The notes under the pieces: model-generated
Told to the model about the DNA's origin: nothing
Seen by the model: only the letters and a program-made list of their open reading frames with translations
Databases searched by the model: none
Assembly (NCBI GenBank): GCA_019634165.1
Contig: JAHQVT010000007.1
Span: 124,001-188,000, forward strand
DNA length: 64,000 nucleotides
Direction: 5' to 3'
From: Rhodospirillales bacterium
Lineage (GTDB): Bacteria; Pseudomonadota; Alphaproteobacteria; Rhodospirillales; Thalassospiraceae
Part shown: positions 4,484-16,978 of the stretch, one piece after another
Layout of the letters: each line of letters opens with the position of its first letter
Numbering within the stretch: the first letter of the stretch is position 1
Program-made: the position numbers and the translations under genes

Positions 4484-4767
4484 TCTTCGCGGTCAGCTTG
4501 ACCGTTGCCATTTCCATCACCACCGCCGCGGCTGGCAACGTTTTCTGTTGCCAGCCGCCTGATCTGCAACACCAAGGCACGTTGCCCTTCACGCATCCAG
4601 ATGGCTTGACTGTTCGCATCCGGGCCAAGGGCGGTGTGAAGGATTTGGCGTTCAAGATCGGTAAGAACCCGCTGCCCGGCAGCATCGGCAAAGCAGGCCT
4701 GCCAATGGTCTATTGTCCCGTCATCCGCAATGTCGGGTGTTGGGTCGAACCAGTCCCAGCCGCTCAT
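4480..4767 (-). CDS. Small phage protein of Bbp19-like type
   Basis: A 95-residue protein with the pattern WQACFADAAGQRVLTDLER, ILHTALGPDA, then REGQRALVLQIRRL, which matches the short phage proteins typified by Bordetella phage BPP-1 Bbp19, found beside podovirus portal genes. Its ATG overlaps the portal stop by four bases (4764-4767), so the two are translationally coupled. The C-terminus is a glycine/asparagine-rich charged tail. The role is not known; it is probably a virion or head-assembly factor. Recognition of the family is from memory of the motif pattern. Confidence 0.7.
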   Translation of the reverse strand: MSGWDWFDPTPDIADDGTIDHWQACFADAAGQRVLTDLERQILHTALGPDANSQAIWMREGQRALVLQIRRLATENVASRGGGDGNGNGQADRED

Positions 4768-6347
4768 GACGTGACCTCCAACATTTCGGGTGGCAAAGCT
4801 GGACGCAGCACATGGTCGGGCACGCCAAACTGATCGGCAAGCCAGCGAACCATCACGGGCAAATCAACCTCGCCAAGGGCTTCCGGGCCAAGGGTTGCAA
4901 TGCGTGATAACCAATCAAGCGCCTGCCCCGCCTTCACCCGTTTGGGCAATTGTGCAAGCGGGGCCGAATGGCGCAAAACCACAACATCGCCATCAATCGG
5001 AATGTCGGGAAGCTCGCCGGTTTTGGTCAGGATATAAAGTGCTCTGCGGATTAACGGATAGAGCAATTCTGCCTGCAACCGGCCATAGGTTGCGCCGAGA
5101 AGACGCGCATTTTCCGATGCCCGTTCAAGAACCTCGGTCGCGGTCATGCCCGGTTGATCGACCTGCCCCAACCGATCGGCCAACAAACAGCGCCGAATGC
5201 GATCGCGAAGGTCCGATAGAACCAAATCTGACACATCAAACCGCCCCGGCGCATCAAGTGGCTTTAACCCTGCTGACCCAACTGCCTTTGGAATGATGCT
5301 GCCGGGGATAAGCCGGATGGTGGCCGGGTTCAGCACCCCGTCATCATCGGCCTGCCATATGCCGGTGACCGCAATGGATGCGTTTTTCAAAACAAGTTCG
5401 ACGACCTTATTGGCGGTTTTAATATCGGGCAGTGCCTTCATTACCGGGGACCGGCCATAGGTTTCACCGGGTGCCTTCATCCAGCGAAATGCGATATAGG
5501 GCGACACATCAAAATGATCGCGATAAATCACATCATCATTGGCAATGGATGACGCCGCGCTCGAACCTTTGCTGCTGTTGGACGCTGTTGCGTCTTCAAG
5601 AAACACGCAAATGTCATACCCCGTCCCACCATCGGTTTTGGGGATAACCGCCTCAATCACGGCAAAGCGTTTGTGATCGGATTGGCCTGTGTCATTTCCA
5701 TCAGCGCGCGGCAGGTTTTTCGCATCCGGCCAGTTTTGCTGAATTTCATCGAAGGTCAGCGATAGCTTGCGAAACACCGCATCCATCTTGCCGTCACTGC
5801 GTTCTTCAAACGCCAGATCGCGCAATGGAACCGCGGCAAAACGAAAAGCAGACGGGCTGTGTAAATCTGCCTTTTCAAGACGCAAACACGCGGTTCCCGC
5901 AGTGACCAGATCAAGAAACGCCTGATGCATTTCAACCGCAAAGTTTGACCGGTCAAAATGCCCCTGCAAAATGCGGACAGCACGGCCCAATTGTTCGGTC
6001 AAAACCTGCCGGTCATCGCTTGAAACATTCCCACCCGGTTCAAGGTCAAACCATCCCCCGCCCGGCGGGGTAATTTCAGCCATCAAACTGGCGGCAAGCT
6101 GTTCGACCGCATCAGGGGCGGTTGCATCAAACACCCGATCAAGGCGTTTGCCACCATCGGTTTGCTGAGTGGAACCATTGCGCTGTGGCAAGGCAAATTC
6201 ATAACATTCTTGCCAATGGGCTTGCCAATTGCGCCGTTTACCGACTGCCTTTTGATAACCTGCGCGCAAGGGTGCGATGCTTGGCACTGGTGTTCGATTT
6301 TGGTCGTGCTTTGTCGCCGTTTCGTTGATGGCTGTTCCCTTAATCAC
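4764..6347 (-). CDS. Phage portal (head-tail connector) protein, T7-like
   Basis: About 527 residues. Recognisable podovirus connector features are WQECYEFALPQR near the N-terminus, then RVFDATAPDAVEQLAASL, MAEITPPGGGWFDLEPG, FHLDR-like segment HFDRSNFAVEMHQAFLDL, TAGTACLRLEKAD, and a C-terminal block with TATEVLERASENARLLGATYGRLQ, as in the Head-tail_con family. The frame is open to 6401, but GTG 6347, four bases after the stop of the upstream small gene, fits coupled translation better. As a dodecamer it forms the packaging portal. No terminase gene is adjacent, which is unusual for an intact phage. Confidence 0.88.
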   Translation of the reverse strand: MIKGTAINETATKHDQNRTPVPSIAPLRAGYQKAVGKRRNWQAHWQECYEFALPQRNGSTQQTDGGKRLDRVFDATAPDAVEQLAASLMAEITPPGGGWFDLEPGGNVSSDDRQVLTEQLGRAVRILQGHFDRSNFAVEMHQAFLDLVTAGTACLRLEKADLHSPSAFRFAAVPLRDLAFEERSDGKMDAVFRKLSLTFDEIQQNWPDAKNLPRADGNDTGQSDHKRFAVIEAVIPKTDGGTGYDICVFLEDATASNSSKGSSAASSIANDDVIYRDHFDVSPYIAFRWMKAPGETYGRSPVMKALPDIKTANKVVELVLKNASIAVTGIWQADDDGVLNPATIRLIPGSIIPKAVGSAGLKPLDAPGRFDVSDLVLSDLRDRIRRCLLADRLGQVDQPGMTATEVLERASENARLLGATYGRLQAELLYPLIRRALYILTKTGELPDIPIDGDVVVLRHSAPLAQLPKRVKAGQALDWLSRIATLGPEALGEVDLPVMVRWLADQFGVPDHVLRPALPPEMLEVTS

Positions 6348-6351
6348 CGCT

Positions 6352-6588
6352 TTAATCCCCCAACAAATTCTTGCCACCCGCGGCCTGATTGATCCGGTCA
6401 CTTAAAAGCCCGCGATAGCTGGTTGCAACCAGACTGGACCGCCCATAGCGCTGCCGTTCAAGGGCTTCTTTGCGCGCATTGCTTGCGGCTTGTTCGGCAC
6501 TGGTTTCGGTTTCTGAATTGCTTGTGTTTGTCGTTGCGACCGGGGTGCTTGTGGCCACCGGTTTTGGTGTTGAAAACAGGCTTCCCAT
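6352..6588 (-). CDS. Small phage protein upstream of portal
   Basis: A 78-residue protein starting MGSLFSTPKP. AAGGAG lies at good spacing before ATG 6588; a GTG six bases earlier overlaps that site. The middle is low complexity (S, T, N, E), followed by a conserved-looking C-terminus RQRYGRSSLVATSYRGLL and GGKNLLGD. Small proteins with an N-terminal MGSLF and a C-terminal KTLLG/KNLLG end commonly precede T7-like portal genes and may be virion components; function is not established. Confidence 0.7.
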   Translation of the reverse strand: MGSLFSTPKPVATSTPVATTNTSNSETETSAEQAASNARKEALERQRYGRSSLVATSYRGLLSDRINQAAGGKNLLGD

Positions 6589-8969: not shown

Positions 8970-10004
8970 TTAGGGCAGGTTTTCCTTCACCACGACTTCC
9001 ATGGTGAGTTTGGCAACATCCGCATTGGCATCAAGCCCGTTGCGGAGATTTTCAAAAATCCGCAGCGTATTTTGCACAATCACGCCGGGGCTTTGGGTGA
9101 TGACCACATCCATGATGTCTTCGAGCAAGAACCGTCGTGTATCAGGCGTCAGGCCGTGGCCGATAAAGATGATGTCACGCCCCCGACCGCTTTCGCGCAA
9201 GGCCCGCGCCACCCCGTCTGATGATCCACCAACGTTATAAATCCCGATCAAATCGGGATATTCCGCCAGAAGCGACTTGGTGTGCAGATAGTTTTCGCTG
9301 CGATCATCATGGCCTTCGCGGGCCGCGACCACCCGGATGTCAGGAAAGGCTTCCTCCATCAGACTAAGGAAACCCATTTCGCGTTCTTCATGGGCGCGGT
9401 ACGTCCGGCTGGCGGCAATCATCGCAACCCGACCTTGCGTCGGTTTCATAAACCGGCCCAGCAAATAGCCTGCTGTGCGGCCCACCGCCCGGTTATCCAA
9501 CCCGACATAGGCCGCATGCGGCACGCCGGAAATATCGGAAACCACCGTGATCATGTGTTTACCCGCATCCTGAAGATCCGACACGGTTTCGCGCACCAGC
9601 GGATGATCAATCGCCATAAAGGCAATGCCATCGGCCTTTTCGCCATGTTGGCGCAGGGCTTCGGATAAAAGCTGCGGGTTAAAACTGTCGATGAAAAAGC
9701 ACCGCGCGCGGATGTTATAGCCCGTAATCGCCTCTGCCGCAGTTTTGATCCGATCACCCAGCAATTGCAAATAGGGATTGGTGCCTGATGGCAGCAAAAA
9801 CACCACCCGCATCGGCTTGGGCCGAAAGACTTCCTGCATATCGGTTTCAGGCAGATAGCCAAGTTCGGATGCGGCCTGCAAAACGCGCTTTGCCGTGCGT
9901 TCGCGCACACCGGGGCGTTTGTTCAAAACACGGTCGACCGTTGCCGGTGAAACACCGGAAATGTCGGCGATATCCTTGATAATCGGTCCGGTCGTCTTTG
10001 GCAT
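8970..10004 (-). CDS. LacI-family transcriptional regulator
   Basis: A 344-residue repressor. The N-terminal HTH reads IKDIADISGVSPATVDRVLNKRPGVRERT (residues about 9-37), with the hinge helix AAKRVLQAASELGY pattern, then a periplasmic-binding-like sugar domain (RVVFLLPSGTNPYLQLLGDRI; GLDNRAVGRTAGYLLGRFM; GIYNVGGSSDGVARAL). ATG 10004 is preceded by GAGGG; the frame is open to 10112 without a better site. It is divergent from the TRAP-RuBisCO-like operon with a 184-base gap holding inverted repeats, so it most likely represses that operon and is released by the imported sugar acid or an intermediate. Confidence 0.92.
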   Translation of the reverse strand: MPKTTGPIIKDIADISGVSPATVDRVLNKRPGVRERTAKRVLQAASELGYLPETDMQEVFRPKPMRVVFLLPSGTNPYLQLLGDRIKTAAEAITGYNIRARCFFIDSFNPQLLSEALRQHGEKADGIAFMAIDHPLVRETVSDLQDAGKHMITVVSDISGVPHAAYVGLDNRAVGRTAGYLLGRFMKPTQGRVAMIAASRTYRAHEEREMGFLSLMEEAFPDIRVVAAREGHDDRSENYLHTKSLLAEYPDLIGIYNVGGSSDGVARALRESGRGRDIIFIGHGLTPDTRRFLLEDIMDVVITQSPGVIVQNTLRIFENLRNGLDANADVAKLTMEVVVKENLP

Positions 10005-10028
10005 TGCACCCTCAAAAACATCAAAACA

Positions 10029-10064
10029 CATCAATTTATGATGTTTGATGAGGCGAAATGTTTC
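10029..10064. promoter_or_regulatory. Candidate LacI operators between regulator and TRAP operon
   Basis: CATCA-ATTTA-TGATG at 10029-10043 is a perfect dyad with further CATCA and TTGATG arms beside it. GAAA-TG-TTTC at 10055-10064 is a second dyad of LacI-operator size. Both lie 25-60 bases upstream of the lacI-type start codon and in the shared promoter region. Confidence 0.5.
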
Positions 10065-10188
10065 ACGTACTCTGAGAACATTCAAGGGAAAAGAAAAACA
10101 AAATCCCCGCAAAATAGACTAGGGTCAGGGCCTGTTAGTTGACGGTTTCTGCCCCTAAAAAACGCATAGACCATCACGGGAGGAAACC

Positions 10189-11199
10189 ATGGTCATTCAG
10201 AACAAATTTCGTCATATCGCGACGACCCTCGCTGCTGCTGCATCCCTGACTGTCATGGCGCATAGCGCACAGGCGCAGGAATATGAACTGAATTACGGCC
10301 ACATGAATTCCCCAACCAGCGTGGTTGGTCTACAGGCCGACTGGCTGGCAGAAGAAGTTGCAAAAAACACCGATGGTGCGGTCAAGATTGACGTTTATCC
10401 GTCATCCCAGCTTGGCAAGATTCAGGAACTGGCCGAAGGCGTATCGATGGGCGCCATTGCGTTGTCGCATAACACCGCTGGTGCGCTGAGCTCGCTTTAT
10501 GAAGATTTCGGCGTGCTTGATACCCCGTATCTGTACCGCGACTATGATCACCTGATGAAGGTTGTCGATATCAATTCCCCTGTCATGTCCGAACTTAATC
10601 AGGGCCTGATCGACAATACCGGCATGCGCGTTCTCTATGCGTTTTATTTCGGCACCCGTCAGTTGACCGCAAATATGGCCGTTAAAACCCCGGCGGATCT
10701 GGCTGGTGTTAAAATCCGCGCCATTCCATCCCCGGTTTATCTGACCGCTGTCGAAGGTCTTGGTGCGGCACCTGTGCCGGTTGACTGGTCCGAAGTTCCG
10801 ACCGCCCTTGCCACCGGCATCGTTCAGGGCCAGGAAAACCCGGTCAATGTGGCCGTGGACCATAAACTTTATGATGTTCAGACACACATGATGCTGACTG
10901 GGCATATTTCAGCCGCCGAGATCGTCGTGATCAACGAAGACCTGTGGCAGAGCTTCCCGCAAGACATCAAGGACGCCATCACCAAAGCGGCCGAAACCGT
11001 GCGGATGAAAGCATCGCAGATGATCCTTGATAAAGAAACAGGCGATCTTGCCAAACTTAAAGAAGCCGGCATGACGATCATTAGCCCGGCTGACGGGCTT
11101 GACGTTGCCGCCTTCCGCGCAGGTGTCGAAAAACTTGTTCACGAACGTTTCGACGACAAATTCGGCAAATACTATGAAGCAATTGCTGCCGTAGAATAA
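10189..11199 (+). CDS. dctP: TRAP transporter substrate-binding protein (DctP family)
   Basis: A 336-residue periplasmic solute-binding protein. A signal peptide with AHSAQA cleavage site ends near residue 29. The mature protein has the TRAP pattern LNYGHMNSPTS, AEEVAKNTDGAVKIDVYPSSQLG, and the signature GVKIRAIPSP with the carboxylate-binding arginine at about R177, then EVPTALATGIVQGQENP. GGGAGG lies before the ATG. It captures an organic acid (TRAP ligands usually carry a carboxylate) and hands it to the membrane subunits encoded next. First gene of the operon leading to the RuBisCO-like protein, so the ligand is probably the pathway substrate. Confidence 0.95.
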   Translation: MVIQNKFRHIATTLAAAASLTVMAHSAQAQEYELNYGHMNSPTSVVGLQADWLAEEVAKNTDGAVKIDVYPSSQLGKIQELAEGVSMGAIALSHNTAGALSSLYEDFGVLDTPYLYRDYDHLMKVVDINSPVMSELNQGLIDNTGMRVLYAFYFGTRQLTANMAVKTPADLAGVKIRAIPSPVYLTAVEGLGAAPVPVDWSEVPTALATGIVQGQENPVNVAVDHKLYDVQTHMMLTGHISAAEIVVINEDLWQSFPQDIKDAITKAAETVRMKASQMILDKETGDLAKLKEAGMTIISPADGLDVAAFRAGVEKLVHERFDDKFGKYYEAIAAVE

Positions 11200-11206
11200 T
11201 CGCGCT

Positions 11207-11256
11207 TCGGGGCGGCTTTGTGGAACATTTTATTCACGAAAGCCGTCCCGATTTTT
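11207..11256 (+). terminator. Attenuator-type hairpin between dctP and dctQ
   Basis: TCGGGGCGGCTTTGTG pairs with CACGAAAGCCGTCCCGA around a 12-base loop, followed by TTTTT. It lies eight bases after the dctP stop. Partial termination or 3' protection here would give more binding protein than membrane subunits. Confidence 0.75.
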
Positions 11257-11285
11257 CTGTGCCCAATTGATTTTCAGGTATCGTC

Positions 11286-11876
11286 ATGCCCTACAGGAAC
11301 TCCTCGATTTATAGGGGACTGGACCGTGTTTGCCGGGTTCTGACCGCATTTTCGATGGTGATGCTGGCACTGATGACGGTGCTGGTCGTTGGTCAGGTGA
11401 TCTTGCGTAATTTGTTTGATCTTGGCCTGCCATGGGCTGATGAACTGTCGCGCATTTCAAATGTCGCATTGGTGTTTTTCGCGGTTCCCACCCTGATGCT
11501 GCATAACCGTCATATCGCAATTGATCTGCTTTATAGCGCCTTGCGTCCGCGCGGCAAAGCCATCCTGCGCTTTGCCAATTACACGCTGATTTCCGTGTTT
11601 TCCGCCATTTTCCTGTTTGGTCTTTATAAATTTTTGATGCGGGCGGGCAAGTTCACAACGCCGTCGCTTAATCTTTCAAATTATGCGGTTTATGCCCCGG
11701 CGGTGATTGCCATTTCCATGTTATTGGCTGTTGCCCTTTATCGGTTGATCACGCGCACTGAAACCGCCCCTGACTATGAATCTGATGATGGCAGCAACGC
11801 AATTGCCGATGCGATTGCGCAAGAAATGTCGTCCGAACTCTCGCCTGATCCATCCCGTGGGGATTCCGACAAATGA
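11286..11876 (+). CDS. dctQ: TRAP transporter small membrane subunit (DctQ family)
   Basis: A 196-residue membrane protein with four predicted helices (MVMLALMTVLVVGQVIL; VALVFFAVPTLML; YTLISVFSAIFLFGLY; VYAPAVIAISMLLAVALY). The family motif region reads GLPWADELSRISNVALVFFAVP. The C-terminal 35 residues are a charged, cytoplasmic tail. It partners DctM in the inner membrane. The stop overlaps the dctM start by four bases, so the subunits are translationally coupled. Confidence 0.93.
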   Translation: MPYRNSSIYRGLDRVCRVLTAFSMVMLALMTVLVVGQVILRNLFDLGLPWADELSRISNVALVFFAVPTLMLHNRHIAIDLLYSALRPRGKAILRFANYTLISVFSAIFLFGLYKFLMRAGKFTTPSLNLSNYAVYAPAVIAISMLLAVALYRLITRTETAPDYESDDGSNAIADAIAQEMSSELSPDPSRGDSDK

Positions 11877-13150
11877 TGAGTGCAACCCTTCTTATCCTGT
11901 TTCTGGCACTCATGATCATTCGCTTGCCGATTGCCATTTGCCTTGGCCTGTCATCGGCAATCATCATGATCCTGTTTAACCTGCCGATGACGGTTCTGGC
12001 ACAGCGCACGGTCAATGCCCTTGATTCAACCCCGCTTCTCGCCGTCCCGCTGTTTATCCTTGCCGCCAATCTTCTCAGCCTGTCGGGTGTCACCAACCAT
12101 TTGTTCGAACTTGTACGAATGATGGTCGGCTGGATCCGGGGTGGCACGGCCCAGGTCAGCGTTCTGGTCAGCTTGATCTTTTCAGGTGTCTCTGGCGCGG
12201 CCCTAGCCGATATCGGGGCACTGGGTGCGGTTCAAATCAAAATGATGCGCAAACAGGGCTATTCGCCCGAATTTGCATCGGGCATCACCATGGCAGCGGC
12301 CACCATTGGTCCGATTTTCCCGCCAAGCATTCCGATTATTATCTTTGCATCGGTCGCCAATGTATCTGCGGTCAAATTGCTGATCGCTGGGATCGTTCCC
12401 GCCATTCTGATCACTCTTCTTTTGATGGCGCAGGTCGCGGTAATGGCAAAGGTTTATAAGCTGCCGCGCGATGATGTTAAATTCAACATTGCCGCCTTTG
12501 CCCGAAAGTTTGTCATTTCCTTGCCCGCCCTTGCCGCCCCGGTTCTTTTGATTGGTGGTTTGATTTCAGGCTATTTCGGCCCGACCGAAGTTGCCGGTGT
12601 GACGGTTGCCTATGCGCTTTTGATTGGCAAATTCGTCTATCGCCAGCTTGATCTTAAACGGGTTGTGCTTGCCGCGCGTGACAGTGTCGATGCAACGGGC
12701 AACGTCCTGTTCATCGTATCAACCGCGGCCCTGTTTGCCTGGGTTCTGACCATGGACCGCCTGCCGGTCACGGCCAGCGAGTTCTTGCTGGGTCTGTCAA
12801 GCGATCCGCTGGTGTTGCTGCTGATTGTTAATGTGCTTTTGCTTGTTGTCGGCATGTTCTTGGAATCAATTGCCGCCATCCTGATCATTGCACCGATCAT
12901 TACCCCGGCCATGACGGCCGCTGGCGTTGATCCCCTGCAGCTTGGTGTTGTCTTTGTCCTCAACCTTATGATCGGGCTTCTGACCCCGCCTGTCGGCATG
13001 AGCCTTTATATGGTCAGCATCATCGCCAAGATGCCACTGCACCGGGTGATCCGTGGGGCGCTTCCCTTCCTGTTACCCCTGTTTTTGTCACTTCTTGTAG
13101 TGACCTGCATACCGGCAATCTCTACCTGGTTGCCCAACCTTCTGGATTAA
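11873..13150 (+). CDS. dctM: TRAP transporter large permease subunit (DctM family)
   Basis: A 425-residue polytopic protein with about 12 helices, the sodium-coupled transport subunit. Family landmarks are LLAVPLFILAANLLS, the segment FSGVSGAALADIGALG, ITMAAATIGPIFPPSIPIIIFA and, near the C-terminus, VVFVLNLMIGLLTPPVGMSLYMVS. Length and motif order are normal. It starts within the dctQ stop and ends 10 bases before the VOC gene, so transport and metabolism lie in one operon. Confidence 0.95.
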   Translation: MMSATLLILFLALMIIRLPIAICLGLSSAIIMILFNLPMTVLAQRTVNALDSTPLLAVPLFILAANLLSLSGVTNHLFELVRMMVGWIRGGTAQVSVLVSLIFSGVSGAALADIGALGAVQIKMMRKQGYSPEFASGITMAAATIGPIFPPSIPIIIFASVANVSAVKLLIAGIVPAILITLLLMAQVAVMAKVYKLPRDDVKFNIAAFARKFVISLPALAAPVLLIGGLISGYFGPTEVAGVTVAYALLIGKFVYRQLDLKRVVLAARDSVDATGNVLFIVSTAALFAWVLTMDRLPVTASEFLLGLSSDPLVLLLIVNVLLLVVGMFLESIAAILIIAPIITPAMTAAGVDPLQLGVVFVLNLMIGLLTPPVGMSLYMVSIIAKMPLHRVIRGALPFLLPLFLSLLVVTCIPAISTWLPNLLD

Positions 13151-13160
13151 GTGAGGAAAC

Positions 13161-13700
13161 ATGAGCAGATTTCTTGGTGAAATTCGCCAGCTCGGTTACG
13201 TCGTGCCCGACATTGAAGCGGCCATGGACTATTGGGCCGAAACAATGGGCGTTGGCCCGTGGTATTATAATCCGCACGTTCCGATCGAAGATTACCGCTA
13301 TGACGGACAATCTTATGACGTTCACAACTCGGTCGCGCTTGCCAATTCGGGATATGTTCAGGTCGAACTGATCCAGACCCGCAATGATGCACCATCGATG
13401 TATCGCGACTTCCAAAGGGCTGGAAATACCGGTCTTCAGCATGTTGCCTATTGGACCGAAAACTTTGATAGCGATCTTGCCCTGATGGAAAGCAAAGGCT
13501 TCACAGTGAAGATGAGCGGCAAGGTCGGCGAAGCCGGTCGTTTCGTTTATTTCGACAAGGAAATGCATCCCGGCACCGTGATCGAACTTTCCGAAGTTGT
13601 CGGCCCGAAAGGTCGCCTGTTCAAATCGATCTATGAAGCATCCCTTGACTGGGATGGCACTGATCCGATCCGTCCTTTCCCATCGCTTTCGGAAATCTGA
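13161..13700 (+). CDS. VOC/glyoxalase-fold metal enzyme of the RuBisCO-like operon
   Basis: A 179-residue protein with two beta-alpha-beta-beta-beta modules of the vicinal oxygen chelate superfamily. Metal-ligand positions can be matched to Q10 (IRQLGYVVPD), E69 (VQVELIQ), H94 (LQHVAYW) and E142 (TVIELSE), like the methylmalonyl-CoA-epimerase/Glyoxalase_4 branch with Gln at the first site. GAGGA precedes the ATG. It lies between transporter and RuBisCO-like gene with 10- and 3-base gaps, so it acts on the same compound, most likely as an isomerase, epimerase or lyase that makes the 2-keto or enediol form needed by its partners. The exact reaction is unknown. Confidence 0.85.
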   Translation: MSRFLGEIRQLGYVVPDIEAAMDYWAETMGVGPWYYNPHVPIEDYRYDGQSYDVHNSVALANSGYVQVELIQTRNDAPSMYRDFQRAGNTGLQHVAYWTENFDSDLALMESKGFTVKMSGKVGEAGRFVYFDKEMHPGTVIELSEVVGPKGRLFKSIYEASLDWDGTDPIRPFPSLSEI

Positions 13701-13703
13701 CCC

Positions 13704-14975
13704 ATGGACTTGATTGAAGCCCGGTATCTTATTGAAACACCGATGGACCCTGAAAAGATCGCCGCCATCATGGCCGGCGAGCAAAGCAGTGGCACATTTG
13801 TGAGTGTGGCTGGTGAAACCGACGAGTTGCGCGAACGCTGTTCGGCACGTGTGTTGTCCATTCGTGAACTCACCCCTGCCAATCAGCCCAGCCTGCAAAG
13901 TGCGTATTTGACCGTACGCGGGGTCACGGGACCATACCGCCGGGCTGAAATCCGCATTGGTTTTCCGACCGGCAACATCGGGCGTAATCTGGCAACCTTG
14001 GCATCAACAGTTTCGGGTAATCTTTATGATCTGGGCGAGATCACTGGGCTTAAACTGGTTGATGTCAAACTACCCAAACCCTATCGTGATCTTTACGATT
14101 ATCCAGTGGCTGGCACCAAAGGCACCCGTACCCGCATGAATGTGCTGGGTCGTCCATTCTTTGGCACGATCATTAAACCAAATGTTGGGATGCGTACCCC
14201 TGATATTGCCAATCTGGTTGAACAGCTTTGTGAAGCCGGGGTTGACTTCATCAAGGATGATGAAGTCTGCGCCAATCCGGAATCGTCCCCTCTTGCCGAA
14301 CGCATTCCCGCCGTGATGGACCGAGTGCGCCGCTATCGCGATCGCACCGGGCGCGATGTCATGATTGCGTTTAACATCACCGATGAAACCGATGCCATGC
14401 GCACCCATGCCGACCTGATTGAAAAAGAAGGCGGTTCGTGTGCGATGGTCAGCATGAACTGGGCGGGGCTTTCAGCCCTTCAGACCCTTCGTAAATCAAC
14501 CGGCCTTGTTTTACATGGGCATCGCAACGGCTTTGGGGCCTTGTCGCGTCATCCATTAATTGGCATGGCGTTTCCGGCCTATCAAACCCTGTATCGTTTG
14601 ACCGGCATGGATCACATGCATGTCCATGGCATGGGCGGAAAATTTTGCGACGAAGACAGCGAAGTTCAGGCATCTGCCCAAATCTGTGCCGAACCACTCG
14701 CGCCGGGAAATGGCGATGAAGACCACGTTCTTCCGGTCTTCTCATCTGGTCAGTGGGCCGGGACGGTTCCGGCAACCCATGACGCGGTTGGTTCGGCAGA
14801 TTTCATGTTCCTTGCTGGGGGTGGCATTCTGGCCCATCCATCGGGCCCCGCAGCCGGGATTACCAGCCTGCGCCAAGCATGGGAAGCCTGCGAAGCGGGT
14901 ATCAGTCTCGAACAACATGCCATCAATAATACGGTCCTGTCTGAAGCCCTGTCCTTTTATGGGGCAAAAGGCTGA
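13704..14975 (+). CDS. RuBisCO-like protein (form IV-type large-subunit homologue)
   Basis: A 423-residue RuBisCO large-subunit superfamily member, N-terminal ferredoxin-like domain to about residue 135 followed by the barrel. Active-site landmarks are kept: K158 in GTIIKPNVG, the carbamylated-lysine and metal motif K184-D185-D186-E187 (DFIKDDE), H271 in LHGHRNGFGA, H306/H308 (MHVHGMGG) and the loop-6 lysine K313 (GGKF). The end pattern FLAGGGILAHPSGPAAG matches the phosphate loop. Substitutions around them exclude true RuBisCO. Homologues paired with DUF1537 kinases include 3-oxo-isoapionate-4-phosphate decarboxylase/transcarboxylase-hydrolase of apionate breakdown, so it probably cleaves a phosphorylated branched or 3-keto sugar acid. 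Confidence 0.92.
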   Translation: MDLIEARYLIETPMDPEKIAAIMAGEQSSGTFVSVAGETDELRERCSARVLSIRELTPANQPSLQSAYLTVRGVTGPYRRAEIRIGFPTGNIGRNLATLASTVSGNLYDLGEITGLKLVDVKLPKPYRDLYDYPVAGTKGTRTRMNVLGRPFFGTIIKPNVGMRTPDIANLVEQLCEAGVDFIKDDEVCANPESSPLAERIPAVMDRVRRYRDRTGRDVMIAFNITDETDAMRTHADLIEKEGGSCAMVSMNWAGLSALQTLRKSTGLVLHGHRNGFGALSRHPLIGMAFPAYQTLYRLTGMDHMHVHGMGGKFCDEDSEVQASAQICAEPLAPGNGDEDHVLPVFSSGQWAGTVPATHDAVGSADFMFLAGGGILAHPSGPAAGITSLRQAWEACEAGISLEQHAINNTVLSEALSFYGAKG

Positions 14976-14977
14976 TC

Positions 14978-16276
14978 ATGACCAAAATCGTTTTTTGTGC
15001 CGATGATTTTACCGGGGCGTCCGATACACTTGCGACGCTGGCGCGTGCGGGTCTGAATGCACGTTTGTATCTGACCGCCCCGGAACCTTCGGATGACAGA
15101 AACGATCCCAACAAAGGTCCTGATAGCCTTGATGCCTTTGGTGTTGCAACGTCGCTTCGTGCTATGGGGGTCGAAGACGGCGTTGCCACCATTGGTGCGA
15201 TTGCCCACAAACTCGTAGGGGCATGCAATGGCCTATATCATTTCAAGATCTGCTCTACCTTTGATAGCAGCCCCGACACCGGAAACATCGCCGCCATTGC
15301 GGACCGCTATGCCAGTTCTGTTGGTGCAAAATGGAAAGCCGTAATTGGCGGACAACCGTCGCTTCGGCGATTTTGCCTGCTAGGCAACCTTTTTGCCGGG
15401 GCGGGCGATGGTGAACTCTATCGCATTGATCGCCATCCGGTCATGTCGGTGCATCCCGTTACGCCAATGAATGATGCCGATCTTTGCCGTCACCTCGGCG
15501 CACAGGGCTGGCCCAAGATCGGGTTAATTGATTTCACCATCATACGCCAAGGCCGAGCGGCACTTATTGCGGAAATCCGCCGCCGCCTTGCTGCGGGGGA
15601 AACCGAAACCCTGTTTGATGTAAGTGAAGAAACCGATCTTTTGACCATTGGTGAGGCCATCCGCGAGATTGCCAAAACCACTGCGATACTTTGCGTGGGC
15701 GCAAGCAGTGTCGCAGAGGCGCTTTTTCCGCACCTGAGCCCCAATACAGATCACCCAACCAAGCTCCATCGTCGCCCCGGCCCGGTATTTGCCTTTGCCG
15801 GAAGCCGGTCCTCCCTGACCGCCGATCAGGTTACAAGGGCGTGCAGCTACGTCAAACGCAGCATCGCACCATCCGATCTGTGCGATCCAACGGCACTTGA
15901 AGCCCTGCGCGCTGAATGCCTGTCCATTCTTGGCGATGGCAAACATCTTTTGGTCTCGCTGTCTGATAATCGCGACCACACAATTGCCAGTCACGATCTG
16001 GCGCGGGCAAGTGCCGCCTTCATTGCCGGCATCAGTCACACCGTCAAACTTGGCTTTTTGCTGATTGCCGGGGGCGATACATCAAGTCTTGCGTTACAGG
16101 AACTTGGGATTGATAGCCTGTCATTCGCGGCTGACTTTGATGCCGGTGCGCCGATTATTCGCGCGCATGCGTCCTTGGCGACACTTGATGAACTGCCTAT
16201 GTTGCTTAAAGGCGGGCAAATGGGCAAACCTGACTTGTTTGATAACATCACCACGTTATCGGTTTCGACGGTTTAG
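14978..16276 (+). CDS. Four-carbon acid sugar kinase family protein (DUF1537/OtnK type)
   Basis: A 432-residue protein with the two domains of this kinase family: an N-terminal domain with ADDFTGASDTLATLARAG, then FKICSTFDSSP and IGGQPSLRR, and a C-terminal nucleotide-binding domain with FAFAGSRS and LLIAGGDTSSLAL, ending in a GAP-like FDAGAPIIRA. Characterised members phosphorylate erythronate, threonate or 3-oxo-isoapionate. It starts two bases after the stop of the RuBisCO-like gene, so the pair likely act in order: kinase makes the phosphate ester and the RuBisCO-like enzyme cleaves it. Last gene of the operon. Confidence 0.92.
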   Translation: MTKIVFCADDFTGASDTLATLARAGLNARLYLTAPEPSDDRNDPNKGPDSLDAFGVATSLRAMGVEDGVATIGAIAHKLVGACNGLYHFKICSTFDSSPDTGNIAAIADRYASSVGAKWKAVIGGQPSLRRFCLLGNLFAGAGDGELYRIDRHPVMSVHPVTPMNDADLCRHLGAQGWPKIGLIDFTIIRQGRAALIAEIRRRLAAGETETLFDVSEETDLLTIGEAIREIAKTTAILCVGASSVAEALFPHLSPNTDHPTKLHRRPGPVFAFAGSRSSLTADQVTRACSYVKRSIAPSDLCDPTALEALRAECLSILGDGKHLLVSLSDNRDHTIASHDLARASAAFIAGISHTVKLGFLLIAGGDTSSLALQELGIDSLSFAADFDAGAPIIRAHASLATLDELPMLLKGGQMGKPDLFDNITTLSVSTV

Positions 16277-16323: not shown

Positions 16324-16357
16324 TTTGCTGGGGCTTTTGCTCCTGCTAGGATGGGGC

Positions 16358-16978
16358 ATGATCAGACATCAACAAATCTGGGCCGCCCTTGACCAAATTG
16401 CCAAAGACCACGGCTTAACCCCGTCTGGTTTGGCCCGATTGGCGCAACTTGACCCGACCACCTTTAACCGGTCCAAACGCACCACCAATCAGGGCAAGGC
16501 CCGCTGGCCGTCAACCGAAAGCATTTCCAAGGTGCTCTCGGTTACCGATGTCAGTTTTCGTGAATTTTCCGAACTGGTGGATGGCAATGGTGCCGGGCGC
16601 ATTCCGGTCATTGGCTTTGCCCAGGCAGGCAATCGTGGATTTTTTGATGATGCGGGCTATCCGGTCGGTGGATCATGGGAAGACATTACGTTTCCGGCCC
16701 TGCATGATCCAACCGCCTATGGATTACGCATTTCCGGCGACTCAATGGCACCGGTTTTTCGCGATGGTGATCTGATCATTGTAAGCCCCGCCTCAAACAT
16801 TCGTCCACAGGACCGCGTGGTTGTCAAAACCATTGAGGGCGAAGTCATGGCCAAGGAACTGATCCGACGCGGCGCACTTGGCGTAGAACTTAAATCGTTC
16901 AATCCCGAGTATGACGATCGTTTTGTGCCCGCAGACGAAATAGATTGGGTTGCCCGTGTTTTATGGTGCAGTCAGTAA
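16358..16978 (+). CDS. LexA/CI-like repressor with S24 peptidase domain
   Basis: A 206-residue protein with an N-terminal XRE-type helix-turn-helix (WAALDQIAKDHGLTPSGLARLAQLDPTTFNRS) and a C-terminal S24 domain. The catalytic serine is S129 in SGDSMAP and the lysine K166 in VMAKEL; a possible self-cleavage site is the Ala-Gly in FAQAGNRG near residue 92. ATG 16358 follows AGGATGGGG; upstream frame to 16325 is unlikely. Homologues are chromosomal in many alphaproteobacteria. A role in a DNA-damage or stress regulon is inferred from the domain pair. It could also be a prophage repressor, though it is 8 kb from the phage genes. Confidence 0.88.
   Translation: MIRHQQIWAALDQIAKDHGLTPSGLARLAQLDPTTFNRSKRTTNQGKARWPSTESISKVLSVTDVSFREFSELVDGNGAGRIPVIGFAQAGNRGFFDDAGYPVGGSWEDITFPALHDPTAYGLRISGDSMAPVFRDGDLIIVSPASNIRPQDRVVVKTIEGEVMAKELIRRGALGVELKSFNPEYDDRFVPADEIDWVARVLWCSQ

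Follow-up and report, generated by a model that had tools for sequence, protein, structure and literature searches.

Which acid is broken down by an operon that couples a RuBisCO-like protein (RLP) to a DUF1537 kinase, and is its route the same as that of apionate catabolism? The question is raised by a gene island at positions 8970-16276 of a 64,000-nucleotide stretch of a marine Rhodospirillales bacterium (hereafter the window; G000:C7:124001-188000, part of a 4.28 Mb genome), whose closest named relatives by RLP are Thalassospira species (77-89% RLP identity, among the best 80 of at least 588 relatives). We consider it probable that the island forms an entire catabolic operon under LacI control and that it serves to degrade a short oxo- or hydroxy-acid (about C4-C6) that is not apionate, working through import by a tripartite ATP-independent periplasmic (TRAP) transporter, isomerisation by an enzyme of the vicinal oxygen chelate (VOC) superfamily, phosphorylation by the kinase, and cleavage or decarboxylation by the RLP. 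All the genes that the initial annotation had placed in this island are present, and each was confirmed by Pfam:

8970-10004, minus strand: LacI-family repressor (Pfam LacI and Peripla_BP_4), divergent from the operon; the start at 10004 is a chosen ATG, the longest open reading frame (ORF) beginning at 10112
10019-10050: imperfect palindrome CATCAAAACACATCAATTTATGATGTTTGATG with CATCAAA arms in the LacI-DctP intergenic region, a likely LacI-family operator judged from sequence
10189-11199, plus strand: DctP, TRAP solute-binding protein (PF03480; TIGR00787 above cut-off)
11286-11876, plus strand: DctQ, TRAP small permease (PF04290)
11873-13150, plus strand: DctM, TRAP large permease (PF06808; TIGR00786 above cut-off)
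13161-13700, plus strand: VOC-superfamily enzyme, likely a metal-dependent isomerase or epimerase (Pfam Glyoxalase_4)
13704-14975, plus strand: RLP, in the clade of PDB 3nwr (PF00016, 227 bits; RuBisCO_large and RuBisCO_large_N)
14978-16276, plus strand: DUF1537 kinase of the four-carbon acid sugar kinase family (PF07005 and PF17042, that is, SBD_N and NBD_C)

The genes run in the order DctP-DctQ-DctM-VOC-RLP-DUF1537 kinase (10189-16276, plus strand), with LacI facing the opposite way on the minus strand. The intergenic gaps are 10 bases between DctM and VOC, 3 between VOC and RLP, and 2 between RLP and kinase, while DctQ runs 4 bases into DctM.

To what extent this arrangement is conserved can be seen from the GTDB representatives: scanned with the RLP, they gave at least 588 relatives, the best 80 loci being kept and counted by tblastn. 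The VOC gene lies directly upstream of the RLP gene in 80 of 80 loci, and the kinase, whose coupling to the RLP the initial annotation had pointed out, directly downstream in 79 of 80; the single exception (L049) is a contig that ends 7 bases past the RLP. LacI was found in 76 loci, the remaining four having less than 2.4 kb of upstream sequence, and DctM and DctP were found in 75 and 73 loci, respectively; apart from the loci with an ATP-binding cassette (ABC) importer described below, those without them are cut short upstream. The proteins picked from ORFs among the 80 loci number 80 VOC, 79 RLP, 79 kinase, 75 LacI, 75 DctM, 73 DctP and 35 DctQ. The VOC-RLP-kinase arrangement is thus not due to chance, and the VOC-linked RLP clade occurs in many alpha- and betaproteobacteria. 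Other neighbours in a fixed place are shared only by closely related strains (upstream of LacI, a gene in no more than 9 of the 80 loci; downstream, 6 Thalassospira loci), and since no further enzymes are widely conserved, products that enter central metabolism directly are favoured. As for the putative operator, the pattern C[AC]TCAAAA is present in 68 of 77 LacI-operon intergenic regions (that of the window is counted among them), whereas random stretches drawn from these loci lead one to expect 0.6; the contrast is inflated, because the pattern was picked after the regions had been viewed and because GC-rich coding DNA makes up most of the control.

Is the RLP one of the enzymes already characterised? 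It contains the RuBisCO large-chain domains, and in the alignment it retains all the catalytic residues checked, namely K158, K184/D186/E187, H273, R274, H306 and K313, as is expected of a form IV RLP with retained catalytic residues; the initial annotation was therefore right about the catalytic KDDE motif and the loop lysine. We take these residues to be the equivalents of RuBisCO K175, K201/D203/E204, H294, R295, H327 and K334. RuBisCO proper can be rejected (best NCBIfam score of 217 against a cut-off of 497), as can MtnW of methionine salvage (139 against 409). The 3-oxo-isoapionate-4-phosphate decarboxylase OiaX is likewise rejected, because the RLP reaches 404.7 bits on NF042437 where 700 are required and is separate from OiaX in the tree; the OiaX of locus L124, used as a control, scored 775.7 bits on the same model. 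In a tree of 44 RLPs, all 26 sampled VOC-linked members (that of the window and 25 others) form one clade with support of 100/100, and the OiaX proteins (so named by NCBI or above the cut-off) form another, also with 100/100. The RLPs linked to ApnO and ApnL, from Thalassospira C6, Labrenzia, Shinella and P. graminis, fall outside both. The window RLP matches PDB 3nwr_A ("A rubisco-like protein") with an E value of 5e-171 and 572 bits. The source organism of 3nwr is, we believe, Paraburkholderia fungorum, and the P. fungorum locus (L045) carries the full operon. The entry is a structure only, and no function was found for it in the accessible literature searched for 3NWR together with RuBisCO.

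The kinase gives a similar picture. Its SBD_N (148.3 bits) and NBD_C (65.2 bits) domains are both above cut-off and place it in the DUF1537 family, and it falls short of the cut-offs for OiaK (208.5 against 700), 3-oxo-tetronate kinase (170.6 against 350) and D-threonate kinase (60.1 against 450). In a tree of 36 kinases, the 21 sampled VOC-linked operon kinases form a clade of their own (support 95/91), apart from the OiaX- and apionate-linked sets. Neither protein is thus a close match to the OiaX/OiaK models. Of the finding named beforehand as one that would overturn the initial annotation, close identity to a characterised OiaX/OiaT set, the comparison covered the OiaX part, and no such identity was seen there. 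In Paenalcaligenes niemegkensis (L070:9986-12571), RLP and kinase make up a single open frame of 861 amino acids, in which residues 8-417 match the OiaX model and residues 431-857 the OiaK model; the fusion would agree with one enzyme passing its product directly to the other, although this one instance might be a sequencing error.

How, then, does the operon compare with the D-apionate system? As described in PMC6302742, the D-apionate pathway runs via OiaK and the RLPs OiaX or OiaT. The operon resembles it in having adjacent RLP and DUF1537 kinase genes, a full RuBisCO catalytic set in the RLP, and an importer. It differs in that ApnO, ApnL and apiose dehydrogenase are missing whereas a VOC enzyme is constant, in that the importer is of TRAP type where most of the apionate loci read have a sugar ABC importer, and in that its RLP and kinase lie in clades separate from the D-apionate sets and below the OiaX/OiaK cut-offs. 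Pfam and NCBIfam scans of the genes of the locus found no ApnO, ApnL, other lactonase or apiose dehydrogenase, so it does not qualify as a D-apionate catabolic locus, which is defined by ApnO plus ApnL.

The absence of an oxidoisomerase and a lactonase, as claimed in the initial annotation, therefore holds for the locus, but it does not hold for the genome. Another contig (G000:C6:228176 to about 239900; L006 and L007) carries a second RLP-kinase pair in an apiose/apionate locus, together with an ApnO-like gene (PGDH_C, 226 bits), the apionate lactonase ApnL (822 bits against a cut-off of 750), a Gfo/Idh dehydrogenase, an ABC importer and a NanR-type regulator. The RLP of this C6 locus is 43% identical to that of the window. 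In Rhizobium acidisoli, OiaX occurs together with triose-phosphate isomerase, RpiB and dihydroxyacetone kinase, and no match to any of the three was found in the stretches read of C6, Labrenzia and P. graminis; judging from these companion genes, the C6 locus is probably OiaT-like. P. graminis and Acidimangrovimonas carry further RLPs, one of those in Acidimangrovimonas being a true OiaX (747 bits), and the OiaX cut-off was exceeded in 1 of the 10 genomes of this search. Two side observations concern apionate-type loci elsewhere. In an uncultured Roseibium (L186:5868-17299) a single apionate locus contains a pair of ApnO-like genes and adjoins an RLP 68% identical to OiaX, and on a haloarchaeal plasmid (L108:6989-10490) genes for an RLP, a DUF1537 kinase and a GntP permease occur along with an ApnO-like gene.

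Does the operon need ApnO from elsewhere in the genome? A search that covered 79 of the 80 operon genomes (L035 was left out) matched an ApnO relative (E ≤ 1e-30) in 15 of them (11/49 plus 4/30) and none in the other 64; nine of the 79 are titled as metagenome-assembled genomes and may be incomplete, and without these the count is 15 of 70. Since so few of the genomes gave a match, the operon seems not to need ApnO. Within Thalassospira, the window RLP occurs in 13 of 29 genomes and ApnO in 3 of 29, all three of them among the 13. Taken together, the lack of any close OiaX/OiaK match, the separate RLP and kinase clades, and the 64 genomes with no ApnO match make an acid other than apionate the likely substrate, as the initial annotation had proposed, and these sequence comparisons support well, short of proof, a pathway distinct from that known for apionate.

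The importer offers some hints about the ligand. The nearest solved chains to the DctP of the window are 4p9k/4pak (Veis_3954), a distant match of 145 bits; we take these to be complexes with D-erythronate and pantoate. The TRAP importers of the operons are of two types, whose DctP proteins share 24-30% identity, and the DctP from an operon-type TRAP transporter is 56% identical to PDB 4oan, presumably modelled with 2-acetolactate. This compound is a deoxy analogue of 3-oxo-isoapionate. In a review (PMC5812351), the TRAP ligands include both 2-acetolactate and pantoate/D-erythronate. The 4oan-like DctP proteins found elsewhere (on two plasmids) are surrounded by SDR (short-chain dehydrogenase/reductase) and acyl-CoA genes and no sugar-acid genes, which weakens the ligand hint drawn from the transporter. 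In three loci (L057, L065 and L070) an ABC importer takes the place of the TRAP transporter between LacI and VOC, so that the VOC-RLP-kinase trio stays constant across three kinds of importer, two of TRAP type and one of ABC type. Judged from its sequence, the ABC importer resembles the polar amino-acid type; a strict family scan gave it no name.

The 4oan-like transporter and these review ligands would suit a second entry into the known pathway, in which a branched C5 acid of the apionate family (3-oxo-isoapionate or 2-oxo-apionate) is imported, the VOC enzyme supplies only the isomerisation half of the ApnO reaction, and kinase and RLP act as OiaK and OiaT/OiaX. The five operon kinases scanned also score 208-318 bits to OiaK, above their scores to 3-oxo-tetronate kinase in all four cases with both listed, but the apionate-linked, SDR-linked and Azospirillum thermophilum kinases score higher still (404-473 bits), and the distinct RLP and kinase clades as well as the 64 of 79 genomes with no ApnO match speak against such an entry. 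In favour of it, the operon of Chelativorans xinjiangense (L025/L184) is immediately preceded by a complete apionate locus that has an RLP and a kinase of its own; this neighbourhood may hint at related carbon sources, while two RLP-kinase pairs side by side argue against redundancy. Against it, free 3-oxo-isoapionate is, to our knowledge, not an environmental compound. We therefore regard this second entry as possible but unlikely.

Could the substrate instead be a tetronate? DUF1537 kinases serve in the tetronate pathways of OtnK/OtnC and DtnK/PdxA2, and this kinase family is common to them and the operon. They differ from the operon, whose kinase is below the 3-oxo-tetronate and D-threonate kinase cut-offs, whose RLP precedes the kinase, and which has no OtnC or PdxA. 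According to PMC10971088, kinases of this family act on four-carbon acids. One might thus suppose that the VOC enzyme makes or epimerises 3-oxo-tetronate, that the kinase converts it into 3-oxo-tetronate 4-phosphate, and that the RLP replaces OtnC to give dihydroxyacetone phosphate and CO2. The resemblance of the window DctP to 4p9k/4pak, the 171 bits of the kinase to 3-oxo-tetronate kinase, and a PdxA-type enzyme in place of the RLP in A. thermophilum fit this proposal; since the DctP match is distant, however, and OiaK outscores 3-oxo-tetronate kinase in the four operon kinases just mentioned, we find it quite improbable.

What the VOC enzyme does is central to any of these schemes. It has the VOC fold with the four metal-ligand positions in the sequence alignment, the putative ligands being Q/E/H/E. 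Methylmalonyl-CoA epimerase was rejected (29.1 bits on TIGR03081 against a cut-off of 115). Fold and metal-ligand positions are like those of methylmalonyl-CoA epimerase and glyoxalase I, but the ligand letters align as Q/E/H/E rather than H/Q/H/E, and the catalytic Glu of the epimerase is not conserved in the alignment. A reverse scan with VOC of 299 genomes of the P. graminis family gave 24 matches (E ≤ 1e-60), with an adjoining RLP in all 24, and among the 19 plasmid records with a full-length VOC of at least 65% identity, 18 have an RLP at adjoining coordinates, the sole other record being that of A. thermophilum. A twentieth, partial plasmid VOC belongs to what is apparently a broken copy of the TRAP-VOC set in Roseinatronobacter (L158:3390-6246).

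The Q/E/H/E set presumably resembles that of human glyoxalase I, which might suggest a side enzyme that removes a reactive by-product such as a 2-oxoaldehyde, leaving kinase and RLP alone as the pathway. This we think highly unlikely, because VOC is the most conserved enzyme of the operon (65-79% identity to the window outside Thalassospira, against 35-43% for the kinase) and stands first of the three in every one of the 80 loci. That a VOC enzyme takes the place of ApnO and the lactonase, as the initial annotation has it, is at most possible; what the loci do establish is that VOC is the constant third enzyme. A more specific idea is that VOC, as a metal-dependent enzyme, carries out a ketol-acid rearrangement of acyloin type. 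This would match the ApnO step without any redox change and would pass a branched oxo acid, once imported, straight on to the kinase and RuBisCO-type cleavage; we know of no such reaction in the VOC superfamily and would hold the idea very doubtful, but if true it would give RLP-kinase pairs a further physiological role.

For an operon serving an acid other than apionate, we infer the substrate, the order of steps, the VOC reaction and the products as follows. The TRAP transporter would import the acid, and the VOC enzyme, as a metal-dependent isomerase or epimerase, would turn it into a 3-oxo acid. The DUF1537 kinase would then phosphorylate the terminal hydroxyl, and the RLP would cleave or decarboxylate the resulting 3-oxo-acid 4-phosphate by RuBisCO-type chemistry, giving as central metabolites either 3-phosphoglycerate and a C2 acid or a ketose phosphate and CO2. 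VOC could also act after or beside kinase and RLP rather than before them.

Related loci give some perspective on this scheme. RLP-kinase-SDR loci were found in Bradyrhizobium, Cupriavidus, Caballeronia, Chimaeribacter and A. oryzae (L107, L110, L112, L113 and L123). They share an RLP and a DUF1537 kinase with the operon, and a TRAP transporter in all except Chimaeribacter, but they differ in having an SDR dehydrogenase, no VOC relative in the five stretches, and RLPs of different clades. In three of the five, pyruvate kinase (near L110 and L112) or enolase and phosphoenolpyruvate carboxylase (near L107, next to otnK/otnC) lie nearby, which would suit 3-phosphoglycerate as the product in this SDR group. 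In A. thermophilum (L183:9038-18104), LacI, DctP, DctM and VOC are 75-90% identical to their A. brasilense counterparts, and no RLP was found in this stretch or among the plasmid RLP matches (8 Azospirillum records, all listed). On the other side of LacI are a PdxA-type gene (TIGR00557, 313 bits against a cut-off of 290), an OiaK-like kinase (473 of 700 bits), a DeoR regulator and an aldolase. The kinase falls outside the VOC-kinase clade, and the aldolase has its best match, below cut-off, among DhnA-type families.

Several of these observations have to be set against a dedicated operon for an acid other than apionate. The A. thermophilum set of PdxA-type enzyme, kinase and aldolase means either that the RLP step is replaceable or that these neighbours are unrelated. 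A Neorhizobium locus has an SDR dehydrogenase added to the operon, so that an oxidation may be needed that is encoded elsewhere in other hosts. The C6 RLP (408.3 bits) and kinase (403.8 bits) are themselves below the OiaX/OiaK cut-offs of 700, and a low score alone is thus no bar to 3-oxo-isoapionate chemistry. The comparison with OiaT was made through a stand-in, the ApnO/ApnL-linked RLPs that are not OiaX serving for the Xanthobacter OiaT; no NCBIfam match was named OiaT. Finally, 26 other genomes of the class sample have a VOC relative of 43-65% identity, and a close RLP is present in none of them. For 20 relatives in this identity range the contexts are mixed, with no RLP or kinase match among the matches listed and no clue to a substrate.

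The surroundings of the island in the window include a phage head-tail adaptor gene (phrog_332; 4764-6401, minus strand) upstream and an S24/CI-like repressor gene (16325-16978, plus strand) downstream. Similar genes lie at matching positions in 5 and 6 other Thalassospira loci, respectively, and the recurrence of such phage-type flanks suggests that the operon may adjoin a prophage remnant.

We found no paper on the VOC-RLP-kinase operon in the literature searched, a weak negative since most subscription journals are outside its coverage. While the pairing of an RLP with a DUF1537 kinase is already known, the VOC-linked clade seems to be new and without an assigned function in that literature, and the route seems undescribed and distinct from the established breakdown of apiose. 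Few reactions have been assigned to RuBisCO-like proteins, and this clade has a solved relative (3nwr), a fixed set of three enzymes and usually no detectable apionate oxidoisomerase, which makes it amenable to tests of purified proteins on panels of substrates. If the proposed pathway is true, the RLP and the VOC enzyme would each catalyse a reaction new to their family, and a carbon source of marine and soil bacteria would be identified.

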